Origin: Acidimicrobiia bacterium
GTDB lineage: Bacteria; Actinomycetota; Acidimicrobiia; Acidimicrobiales; Poriferisodalaceae
Direction of reading: 5' to 3'
DNA: 64,000 bases
NCBI GenBank assembly: GCA_022820925.1
Contig: JAJEEO010000009.1
Span: 1-64,000, forward strand
The notes beneath the pieces were generated by a model. The model had not been told where the DNA came from. It saw only the letters and a list, made by a program, of their open reading frames with translations, and did no database searches. The translations under genes were made by a program, and so were the position numbers. Below are positions 12,051-16,112 of the stretch, in pieces; positions within the stretch are counted from its first letter, which is position 1, and each line of letters opens with the position of its first letter.

Positions 12051-12980
12051 TCAGCCGGTGATGGCGTCGAGGGTTTCCTCGCTGGGAGCGAAGTAGAACG
12101 AGCCAGAGGCCGGGTTCGAGAAGTCGGTGATGGCGTCGCGAACGCCGTCGGCGTCGTCGAGGCCGTACATCCGGCGCAGGCGGCGCCGCAGCGGGGCCTG
12201 GTCCTTGCAGAACGCCATGAAGTACAGGCCCACGGTGCCGTCGTGGAACGCATACGGCGTGGAGCGGCGGGCGATCTCGTTGATCTTGTCGCTGCCCTCG
12301 TTGCCGTGGTTGCCGTCCGCGCGCAGCTCGACGTGGCTGAGGTGGCTGTAGGGCTCCTGGCTGTCGGTCTTGTCGGTCTCGGGGTACTTCTTGCGCCCGA
12401 AGTTCTTTTCCTGCTGCTCGTCGGAGAGCGCATTCCAGCCGTCGAGGTCGTGCACCCAGCGCTGGGCGATGATGTGGCTGCCGCCCGCGCCCGGGTCGCC
12501 GTCGGGCACGATGGCCACGGCGGGCTGGTCCTCGTCGGCGGGGTTGCCGGTGCCGTCCTTGAAGCCGGTCATGTCCAGCGAGTCGCCGTAGATGAACGTG
12601 GGCGTCTCACGAGCGACGGCCATGTGGCCGGCCAGCGCGGTGCGGGCGTCGTACTGCACCTTCCACACCTTGTCCTTGTCGTCGTGGTTCAGCCACAGCA
12701 GCAGTTCCTCCTGCGTGCCCTTGGCCTCTCGCCCAGAACCGTCTTCTGACTTGACGGTCACGTACTCCTGGAAGTCGTCGGGCACGTCGTCGGTGAGGTC
12801 ACCCAGCAGGCCCGGGCCGATGCCGACGGTCAGGTTGATGCCCTGGGAGTCCGCTGCTGCTCTGGTGGCTGCAATCACGGACTTGATGACACCGAGGTCA
12901 GCGCCCTCGACGCGACTCAGGTGGACGTACCACTGGTTGGCGCCCATTTCGTTGAAGATGGCCTTCTGCGGCGTCGGCAT
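12051..12980 (-). CDS. DyP-type heme peroxidase (YfeX-like)
   Basis: A 309-residue dye-decolorising peroxidase. The family GxxDG motif is GFKDGTGNP near residue 158 and its Asp is the distal catalytic acid. The proximal heme ligand is probably the first His of SHLSHVEL near residue 228, aligned from memory with E. coli YfeX, and IARRSTPY supplies the distal Arg. No Tat signal or encapsulin tail is visible, so it is cytoplasmic. The ATG at 12980 is fixed by AAGGAG five bases upstream; the long open frame beyond it is antisense to the next gene. The divergent neighbour is the AhpD-like selenoprotein candidate, so the pair may form a peroxide-defence locus. Confidence 0.92.
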   Translation of the reverse strand: MPTPQKAIFNEMGANQWYVHLSRVEGADLGVIKSVIAATRAAADSQGINLTVGIGPGLLGDLTDDVPDDFQEYVTVKSEDGSGREAKGTQEELLLWLNHDDKDKVWKVQYDARTALAGHMAVARETPTFIYGDSLDMTGFKDGTGNPADEDQPAVAIVPDGDPGAGGSHIIAQRWVHDLDGWNALSDEQQEKNFGRKKYPETDKTDSQEPYSHLSHVELRADGNHGNEGSDKINEIARRSTPYAFHDGTVGLYFMAFCKDQAPLRRRLRRMYGLDDADGVRDAITDFSNPASGSFYFAPSEETLDAITG

Positions 12981-13193
12981 CTGTGCTCCTTGAGGGGTTC
13001 GATGGTGCAAGCGAAAGCGATCCCGTCGGGCAGCCCGAGCGGCGGCACGGCGAGATTGCGAGGCTGATCGTAGGCCAACCAGCACGGCGCGCGCACCGCC
13101 GCTTCCCACCCTTCGACATGGCTGCGGTCGGAGAGTTCGAGGTGTGCCAGCATGTGGCGATTGAGCCGGCCACCGACCAGCGGAGATGCAGCC

Positions 13194-14309
13194 ATGAGCA
13201 TCGCAGCACCACAGCGCACGTATGACACTGGGCTGCCGATCCGGGACGATCTGGGAGCCGCCCATGGGGAGATCGCGGCCCGCTGGTCGCGGCCGGGCAC
13301 CTGGTGGACCGGCGAGCAGCGAGCTGAGATCGTGCGGCAGGTTCGCGCAGCCCGAGATCACCGCACCGACGATGGCGGCGCGCTGCCGCCGTGGGTGCAG
13401 CCCAGCGGCATCGAGGGTCTTGTGGATGCTGACGGCCCGCTGCCCGCCGCGGCGGCCGATGCGGTGTGGCGCATCACCAATCACCCGGGAACGCTGACCG
13501 AAGACTGGTACCAGTCGATCATCGATCGCGGCGTCGATCCGCTGGCCTATGTGGAGTTGGTGGGCCTGGTCGCACAGTCCAACTGCGTCGATCGCTTCGC
13601 CGACGCGCTGGAGCTGCCGCGCATCGAGCTGGACGAGCCCGCCGACGGCCCGCCGGGGCGGGAAGGCGCGCCTGCGGCCGTGAAGTACCACTGGGTGCCC
13701 ACGGCGGACATCAAGATGCCCAACGTCATCAAGGCGCTCAGCGCCGTGCCGGCGGAGAACGAAGCCCTGTTCATCCTCTCCGACGCCCAGTACGTGCCCA
13801 TGGAGCGCGTGCGAGGCGATGTGGTGTCGGACCGCAACTCGCTCACCCGGCCCCAGATCGAGGTGCTCGCAGCGCGGACATCGAAGCTCAACGAGTGCTT
13901 CTACTGAACGTCTGCACATGCGTTGCTGCTCGGTCTGAGCGGCCAGCAGAAGGACATGGACGTCAGCTACGAGGCCGTCAACGGCTCCGACGGCGGTGAC
14001 GGGGGCGTGCCCCACGGCGCGCTGCTCGCCCGCATTGCCGAGGCGATGTGGGAAGGCGATGCCACCGAGATGGCAGCGGCCCGAGCCGCCCTCACCGACG
14101 CCGCCGGCGCCGATGTGATGGTCGACGCGGTGGCGGTCAGCGCCAACTTCCACATGATGACCCGCGTCGCCGACGGCACCGGCACCCCGCTGGATCCGGG
14201 CACCTACGACATGTCGGCGCCGGTGCGCGAGGCCTGCGACCTGAACGGCTTCGTCTCACGCCGCGACCCCCAAGGCGAGCGCCAAACCGCGCAAGGCGCA
14301 TCGAACTGA
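13194..14309 (+). CDS. AhpD-like (CMD-family) two-domain protein, candidate selenoprotein with TGA-encoded Sec
   Basis: Read through an in-frame TGA at 13905-13907 this is one 371-residue protein. The N-terminal half (about 65-170) resembles a degenerate AhpD/carboxymuconolactone-decarboxylase domain (DPLAYVELVGLVAQSN). The second domain carries the active site: Glu223, Cys235, the TGA at codon 238 and His242. The spacing Glu-x11-Cys-x2-(Cys)-x3-His equals that of AhpD, so the TGA replaces the catalytic second Cys (CxxU). The frame continues for 133 codons with family-like sequence (ANFHMMTRVADGTGTPLD). A hairpin right after the TGA looks like a bacterial SECIS. The ATG at 13194 has GGAG eight bases upstream. 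The expected role is thiol- or selenol-dependent peroxide reduction. The alternative is a nonsense-mutated pseudogene; no selA/B/C/D gene lies in the window. Confidence 0.82.
13925..13943 (+). promoter_or_regulatory. candidate bacterial SECIS hairpin
   Basis: Seven paired positions, GCTGCTC (13925-13931) with GAGCGGC (13937-13943) including one U-G pair, close a five-base loop GGTCT. The stem begins 17 bases after the TGA. The E. coli fdhF SECIS also has a GGUCU apical loop above a short stem at a comparable distance from its UGA. Confidence 0.75.
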
Positions 14310-14360: not shown

Positions 14361-16112
14361 TCAGGACTTGAAGCGCTTCGTCGGCATATGGGGGCCGATG
14401 TAGCCCACGTGCACCTTGCCGGTCGGCCCTCGCGTGTCGTCGTGGAAGTAGAGCCGCGGCGCCATCGACCCGTTCGCCAGCTTCAGGTGCGACTGCATCA
14501 CGGTCCGGCCTGAGGGGTCGACGCCCTTCGAGACCGGCAGCACGCGGTGCTGGCGCAACTCGGGGCGGCGCATCACCTCTTCGGACTCGTTCATGGCCAG
14601 CTTCTTGGCGTTCGCGAACCAGGCGCGCTCGTGCTTGCTTCGGGCGCACCAGTCGCGGAAGTCGCCGAAGTCGTCGCCCTTGTGCGCGTACACCTCAAGG
14701 GCGAGCAGGCCGTCGAACACGCTGCGAGCCCACGACCTGGACTCGATGGCACTGTCGAGGTCGGCGATGCGGTGCTCGGCCTCGGGCGGGATCTCGACCT
14801 TGCGCAGGTTGATGCGCGCAAGCGAGAGGGCTTGGCGAATGGAGGTCACCTGCGGGTACTTGGTGTGGGAGGGATCGGCATCGGCGATCGCGGCGGTCTC
14901 AGACGACATCAGGGCCCTGACGGTCTGATCGCGCGACTCCTCCAGCAGCTCGTGCAGTTGCTCGACCCGCTGCTGGGCCATCTCGAGTTCTTCGAGCACG
15001 TCGTAGAGCTGCTCGGACTGCTCGTCACGCTCGGACCGGGCGGCGGCTCGCTCTTCGCGGGCTTGGTAGAGCGCGGCCCAGACAGCCTCCACTTCTGCCT
15101 CGAGGGCCTCGGCACGCTCGGCCGCGTCGGTGTCGGGCGAGGGCTCATGCCGCTCGCGGCGATCACCCAGCAGCTGGCGGGAGCGGCGGTAGAGCTCGGG
15201 CGGATCGCGGTCGACAAGCATCGACTGGAGCAAGCGGCCGAACCAGCGCCCCGTCTCGTCGGGCTCGCTACGCACGAATTCCGCGGCAAGTGTGCGATGA
15301 CGGTGCGGCTCGTGCTCGCCGGGCAGGTACAGCCGAGCCTCGCCGGGCTGAATGTCGAGCTCAGGTCCCATCGCCACCTGGAAGGGATTGATCGTCTGCG
15401 CCGGCAGCACGTAGACACGGGCGAGTCCAGCCAGTTGGCGTGCCGTTGCCCGAGCGCGGTCCATCGTGGGACCCGGCCCGTCGAGGTAGTCGTGCGCCAG
15501 TACGACGTAGGGCATCACCCGGTTTGCGCCGCGCAAGGCGTTGGCGAGCGGCACGACCGCTTGGCGTGTCGGTTCGACCGCCAGCGGGCGGGTGCCCAGC
15601 CGTTCCGTTGCCATGCGGGGTCGGCCGCCTCCGCGTTCGGCGTCATCCAGCAGCGTGCACACGAGGTCCTGCACCTCGCCGACGTTGGCGGCCGCGGCCT
15701 GTTCGTGACCCATCTCCACATCGACCCACACCCAGCCGTCGGTGCCGTTGGTCAGCACGCGCAGGACCACCACCGATGAACTCGACGGTCCCTGCTGGTC
15801 CAGTTCCAGCAGCGTCTCGGAGACGCCGCCGTGCGCCGCCGTCTCGCGGCGCAGGTTCACCCGCACCTCATCGTTGGCGGCCTCGCCGCCGAAGCCGTTC
15901 GAGGGCCCGTCGGCGGTCGGCCCGCCCGGCGCGGGCGTCGGCGAGGGTGTTTCTGTGCTCGCACCGGCGTCGCCGCCGAGCTGCGGGTGCAGCGTCCGAG
16001 CCCATGCCCGAAACGTGCGCGCAGCAAGCTCGTGCAGACCTGGACGGTCGTCATTCCACATCGCCCGGTACACCACCGGAGTCGCAGTGGGCCGCATCTG
16101 GGCGGAGCTCAC
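14361..16112 (-). CDS. uncharacterised 583-residue protein with central coiled coil
   Basis: I do not recognise this gene. Residues 1-80 are Pro/Gly/Thr-rich after RAMWNDDRPGLHELAARTF. Residues about 85-310 form a globular region (VVVLRVLTNGTDGWVWVDVE). About 325-405 is an acidic coiled coil rich in Glu, Arg and Gln. The C-terminal globular part (about 420-583) ends in HVGYIGPHMPTKRF, which looks like a conserved tail. There is no signal peptide or membrane segment. The start is GTG 16112, with ATG 16097 as an alternative. Its base composition resembles its neighbours. It converges with the selenoprotein candidate and shows no operon partner. Confidence 0.7.
   Translation of the reverse strand: MSSAQMRPTATPVVYRAMWNDDRPGLHELAARTFRAWARTLHPQLGGDAGASTETPSPTPAPGGPTADGPSNGFGGEAANDEVRVNLRRETAAHGGVSETLLELDQQGPSSSSVVVLRVLTNGTDGWVWVDVEMGHEQAAAANVGEVQDLVCTLLDDAERGGGRPRMATERLGTRPLAVEPTRQAVVPLANALRGANRVMPYVVLAHDYLDGPGPTMDRARATARQLAGLARVYVLPAQTINPFQVAMGPELDIQPGEARLYLPGEHEPHRHRTLAAEFVRSEPDETGRWFGRLLQSMLVDRDPPELYRRSRQLLGDRRERHEPSPDTDAAERAEALEAEVEAVWAALYQAREERAAARSERDEQSEQLYDVLEELEMAQQRVEQLHELLEESRDQTVRALMSSETAAIADADPSHTKYPQVTSIRQALSLARINLRKVEIPPEAEHRIADLDSAIESRSWARSVFDGLLALEVYAHKGDDFGDFRDWCARSKHERAWFANAKKLAMNESEEVMRRPELRQHRVLPVSKGVDPSGRTVMQSHLKLANGSMAPRLYFHDDTRGPTGKVHVGYIGPHMPTKRFKS

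Follow-up and report, generated by a model that had tools for sequence, protein, structure and literature searches.

RESULTS

The locus and its reading frame

The window analyzed here comprises the first 64,000 nucleotides of contig JAJEEO010000009.1 from an uncultured Acidimicrobiia bacterium (GCA_022820925.1). On its forward strand, positions 13194..14309 hold a candidate selenoprotein gene of 371 aa, assigned to the NF041238 (AhpD_rel_CFYUT) family by its read-through translation, its match to the family model and the purifying selection acting on it. The frame starts at ATG 13194 and stops at TGA 14307-14309, and a single internal in-frame TGA occupies codon 238 (13905-13907, forward strand). 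Eight nucleotides 5' of the start codon lies GGAG (13182..13185, forward strand), judged from the sequence a likely ribosome-binding site; the sequence CAGCGGAGA is retained in 9/10 genus members. Translated through the TGA, the product carries the motif ECFYUTSAH, in which CFYUT corresponds to residues 235-239. A sequence-only reading of this DNA had placed the TGA at the position of the second active-site Cys of AhpD, counted 133 further codons after it and predicted that automatic ORF callers would split the gene. Coordinates, residues and count all hold, and a mechanical caller indeed cuts at the TGA and begins a second ORF from TTG 13923.

Compared across ten members of the genus, the frame has a dN/dS of 0.07 up to the TGA and 0.12 beyond it, indicating purifying selection on both sides. 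Given the latter value, the 133-codon downstream half is constrained as protein; the sequence-only reading had named a lack of conservation there as grounds for giving up its proposal. The same half holds residues that are invariant in the alignment of family copies (His242, Leu278, Phe319 and Gly330). Adjoining the gene on the reverse strand, 14361-16112 encodes a 583-aa protein without a Pfam or NCBIfam match. Its identity varies sharply among genus members (~48-86%), most neighbors being above 90%.

Conservation of the UGA codon and the selenocysteine machinery

Homologs were collected by searching 61 related genomes and the genome_contigs set, and 64 copies were extracted, with duplicate records removed. 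Codon 238 is TGA in 64/64 aligned copies and never TAA or TAG, these copies being related rather than independent. In phylum-wide samples, among the matches listed above the NF041238 cut-off, each contains exactly one TGA. Homologs with Cys at codon 238 had been anticipated; the alignment instead gave TGA in every copy, and no Cys-form homolog above the family cut-off was found in two phylum samples or among the relatives.

The host genome is a 3.28-Mb draft whose close relatives are metagenome-assembled Acidimicrobiia/Acidimicrobiales. The genome search that had been suggested for selA, selB, selD and tRNA-Sec found all four above their cut-offs. The tRNA-Sec, at 67 bits against a cut-off of 47, has the anticodon TCA (ARAGORN). 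Roughly 12 kb away, selA (395 bits against 268) and selB (272 bits against 242) are grouped together; selD reaches 356 bits against a cut-off of 125. Judged by gene content, the organism uses selenocysteine. The selD gene (G000:C13:426129-427082) is itself a selenoprotein gene, with an in-frame TGA at the active-site position (SHGAGUACK).

A SECIS hairpin follows the UGA

Starting 17 nt past the TGA is a putative SECIS hairpin core (13925..13943, forward strand) in which a 7-bp stem (13925-13931 with 13937-13943) closes the loop GGTCT (13932-13936). Stem, loop and distance are as first described, and the string GGTCT, said to be shared with the E. coli fdhF SECIS, is also present after the fdhF UGA. 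The core, GCUGCUC-GGUCU-GAGCGGC, folds with -10.6 kcal/mol (z -2.8). In the folding check proposed for this region, the core thus stands out, whereas the single-sequence folding energy of a 50-nt stretch is not unusual (z -0.06). Because the longer stretch gave no signal, the case for a SECIS is drawn from the aligned copies and from the core by itself.

Across 62 distinct sequences, the stem positions pair in 94.2% of cells, compared with 31-52% in slid controls, and double-changed stem cells number 12 versus 3.1 in shuffles. All 64 of the related copies use CTC for Leu246, a codon that supplies three bases of the stem (codon entropy 0), whereas at other conserved Leu columns of the same alignment synonymous codons vary freely, with entropies of 1.96-2.35 bits. 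This CTC invariance is the most telling single sign of a SECIS. The published bSECIS model (PMC13188914) describes an apical loop of 3-9 nt, a stem of 4-16 bp, a G within the first two loop positions, a distance of 16-37 nt from the UGA and an MFE of at most -7.5. Every one of these features is found here: a 5-nt loop GGUCU, a stem of 7 bp, a loop 24 nt from the UGA and -10.6 kcal/mol. An Rfam search of the hairpin region gave no match. The pattern TGA-N21-CTCNGTNNGAG has only two genomic occurrences, both in NF041238 genes (this one and a second on contig C11), and its reversed control has none. Together with the TGA shared by all aligned copies and the selection acting downstream of it, this places the arrangement well outside what chance would give.

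The product belongs to a cataloged selenoprotein family

The translation matches NF041238, a model of an alkylhydroperoxidase-related (seleno)protein that spans both domains described below, with 346.8 bits against a curated cut-off of 175. The match covers model positions 1-356 of 357, and the CFYUT motif is encoded with a UGA codon. This family has a history. The 2005 account of the Sargasso Sea selenoproteome (PMC1088965) introduced it as "hypothetical protein 1", noting its CXXU motif and predicting a SECIS. In a 2026 review (PMC13188914), NF041238 stands among the prokaryotic selenoprotein families as "AhpD-related protein (hypothetical protein 1, Sargasso Sea metagenome)" of the CxxU type. 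The present protein resembles these entries in its full-length match, CFYUT motif, CxxU site and size of about 360 aa. Other selenoproteins with an AhpD-type domain and a CxxU site, namely AhpD-like 1 and AhpD-like 2 from the GOS survey and NF041537, are separate families with a different domain make-up.

More general models stay below their cut-offs: Pfam CMD PF02627 (16.3 versus 23), TIGR00778 (16.4 versus 27.8) and TIGR01926 (42.1 versus 81.8). Judged by these comparisons of sequence, the protein is a distant relative of the AhpD-like peroxidases with a family of its own. Because Pfam CMD and TIGR00778 score below their cut-offs, it is the motif and the fold on which any assignment of catalytic chemistry depends.

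In a sample of 379 genomes from the phylum to which a deltaproteobacterial relative belongs, 57 have NF041238 above its cut-off, and no phage record carrying the protein was found. Copies from other phyla mostly carry an N-terminal CxxC, whereas the clade of the window lacks it and has a DyP gene. Counting all loci, 23/69 distinct Sec-type copies have this CxxC and none of the window clade does; many members of the family have a CxLC-type motif in their N-terminal domain (e.g., CSLCRERKQALSP), which is likewise absent from the clade. The genome itself contains a second NF041238 selenoprotein gene (G000:C11:16151-17281, 321 bits), which shares the TGA and the SECIS. Also on that contig, a further short frame resembling AhpD (G000:C11:27045-27428) is interrupted by an in-frame TGA and scores only 31 bits against NF041238; it may encode a single-domain AhpD-like selenoprotein.

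Predicted structure and active site

An AlphaFold2 model of the whole protein, built from 49 sequences (pLDDT 91.4, pTM 0.91), has two AhpD-fold domains. The N-terminal one (approximately residues 13-145; 13230..13628, forward strand) has no catalytic Cys pair; the C-terminal one (approximately residues 163-349; 13680..14240, forward strand) is predicted to be catalytic. By VIA-align, the C-terminal domain of the model matches 6k40 with Z 16.0 over 164 residues (rmsd 2.7). Profile searches also rank AhpD-like enzymes top (6k40, E 1e-13), the closest sequence-profile match being D. radiodurans AhpD. Modeled alone (pLDDT 90.9), the N-terminal domain has AhpD/CMD proteins in all of its best 15 structural rows, the highest Z being 8.8 (120 residues) and the first unrelated row standing at 2.8; Sestrin is absent from these rows. 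Aligned as a whole, the model matches both domains of human Sestrin2 (5t0n, 5dj4) with Z 17.2 over 249 residues (rmsd 4.0), helical folds yielding generous Z values and a common fold being no proof of function. Foldseek alone returned no match under E 0.001, so the structural claim rests on the second look with VIA-align. Similarly, when the profiles of the two halves were compared, they matched only weakly and over a short span (38 columns, probability 41%), so the case for a duplication rests on structure. On the model, the product is predicted to be a fused, Sestrin-like AhpD pseudo-dimer with a catalytic C-terminal domain and a degenerate N-terminal domain.

Around the UGA, the partner thiol of the CxxU site, Cys235 (13896..13898), and the predicted proton-relay residues Glu223 (13860..13862) and His242 (13917..13919), all on the forward strand, are invariant. 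The claim that these residues keep AhpD spacing is borne out by an AhpD-like enzyme of R. eutropha (YP_296737.1), in which Glu74/Cys86/Tyr88/Cys89/His93 are spaced as Glu223/Cys235/Tyr237/U238/His242 are here. The layout Glu-x11-Cys-x2-Cys(Sec)-x3-His coincides with a predicted AhpD fold (Z 16). Single-domain AhpD-like and peroxidase-related enzymes (TIGR01926; 6k40, 2prr, 3c1l) share the C-terminal fold and the Glu/Cys/Tyr/Cys-or-Sec/His layout. The protein differs from them in having Sec for the second Cys and an extra, fused, degenerate domain.

Human Sestrin2 likewise has two fused AhpD-fold domains, one catalytic and the other degenerate, as the model predicts here. In Sestrin2, however, the catalytic domain is N-terminal, with a single Cys125, and the C-terminal one is degenerate, whereas here the CxxU lies C-terminal and pairs Cys with Sec. 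Sestrins also have an acidic DDYDY hinge for GATOR2 (PMC11429811). Profile search found no sequence match between Sestrin2 and the protein, and an open-access literature search for papers joining Sestrins and bacterial selenoproteins returned nothing relevant. Bacterial fused two-Cys AhpD dimers, e.g., of Corynebacterium ureicelerivorans and Comamonas aquatica, are by description alike in their C-terminal catalytic pair and Cys-less N-terminal AhpD-like domain; they keep Cys where this protein has Sec (PMC11429811).

A divergent DyP-type peroxidase gene is a conserved neighbor

Upstream and divergent lies a DyP-type peroxidase gene (12051..12980, reverse strand; PF20628 and TIGR01413 above cut-off), a candidate partner. 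It adjoins the selenoprotein gene in 28/28 near-clade copies from six genera, counting copies whose contig extends far enough; in the next clade, at a comparable level of identity, no DyP gene was found close by. Between the two genes is a conserved block, GATCGTAGGCCAAC (13066..13079), identical in 10 genus members, and its ATCGTA core is retained in 15/16 aligned copies of other genera. The intergenic conservation lies around ATCGTAGG. Read toward the DyP gene, the block gives TACGAT, a possible -10 element; a search of the intergenic region for a sigma-70-type promoter gave no match.

DISCUSSION

What the in-frame TGA means can be judged from its conservation and its context. If it were a true stop, the gene would either yield a protein truncated at its C terminus or be a pseudogene in decay that keeps a remnant ORF downstream, and an ORF caller does divide the gene at this point. 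Such a history is extremely improbable and in practice is refuted by conservation: 64/64 copies agree on TGA to the exclusion of TAA and TAG, dN/dS stays at 0.12 beyond it, the downstream half keeps its invariant residues from His242 to Gly330, and the genome has the full Sec machinery. Less probable still is a codon created by sequencing error or frameshift. The assembly is a draft, and a read error at 13905-13907 had been named as a possible refutation, but separate genus assemblies and other phyla share the same TGA, and the separate assemblies refute such an error. Readthrough as Trp or Cys, formally possible for any in-frame UGA, is as improbable as a true stop in a genome with tRNA-Sec, SelA, SelB and SelD and at a TGA tied to a SECIS hairpin. 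Decoding of UGA 238 as selenocysteine is, on these comparisons, strongly supported; SelB and Sec-tRNA-Sec, bound to the hairpin, would carry it out. The gene very probably encodes an NF041238 selenoprotein with a Cys235-x-x-Sec238 active site, a degree of confidence that does not extend to the substrate.

Function is less certain. In the proposed mechanism, the C-terminal domain would hold the Cys235-x-x-Sec238 couple, served by an AhpD-type proton relay of Glu223, Tyr237 and His242, and the N-terminal domain, without a catalytic pair, would complete the pseudo-dimer. The selenolate would attack a peroxide or an oxidized partner, a Cys235-Sec238 selenenylsulfide would form as resolution, and a thioredoxin- or lipoamide-like donor would reduce it again. 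On balance, the protein is probably an alkyl or lipid hydroperoxidase or an AhpD-type reductase. There is a lesser but appreciable chance that the selenoprotein is no peroxidase and acts as a thiol-disulfide oxidoreductase, a dehalogenase-like enzyme or another type from the CMD superfamily. The CMD/AhpD fold hosts differing chemistries, and the match to the debrominase Bmp8 (6ohi) reaches Z 15.4, a value less than 1 away from those of the AhpD-like enzymes, so the substrate assignment stays loose. Against a non-peroxidase stand the Glu/Cys/Tyr/His relay spacing, which is that of peroxidase-type enzymes, the rank of D. radiodurans AhpD as closest profile match and the DyP peroxidase next door. 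That conserved neighbor makes a role of the hydroperoxidase- or reductase-like selenoprotein in peroxide defense quite possible, if short of probable. More doubtful is the idea that the predicted Sestrin-like selenoenzyme and the DyP-type heme peroxidase may form one divergent peroxide-defense unit under a shared control region. In the papers searched, neither the DyP pairing nor a Sestrin-like architecture for NF041238 was found described.

The sequence-only reading fared well in its main elements, a selenoprotein with a CxxU site and SECIS, related to AhpD, in an actinobacterial host and with a tandem two-domain layout, all of which are supported. Its view that the two-domain form is new or little described does not stand, since NF041238 already models the protein at full length and figures in the 2026 review (PMC13188914). 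The selenoprotein family is already cataloged, and its two-domain layout, also present outside Actinomycetota, is that of NF041238; novelty is limited to modest detail on the architecture and neighborhood of a known family. Within those bounds, a selenoprotein whose gene is split by ORF callers is confirmed in a lineage hardly mentioned for selenoproteins in the papers searched. The otherwise uncharacterized NF041238 gains a predicted structure, a predicted active site and a candidate partner, and its predicted Sestrin-like arrangement may serve as a useful point of comparison on how one domain of a fused AhpD dimer falls silent.
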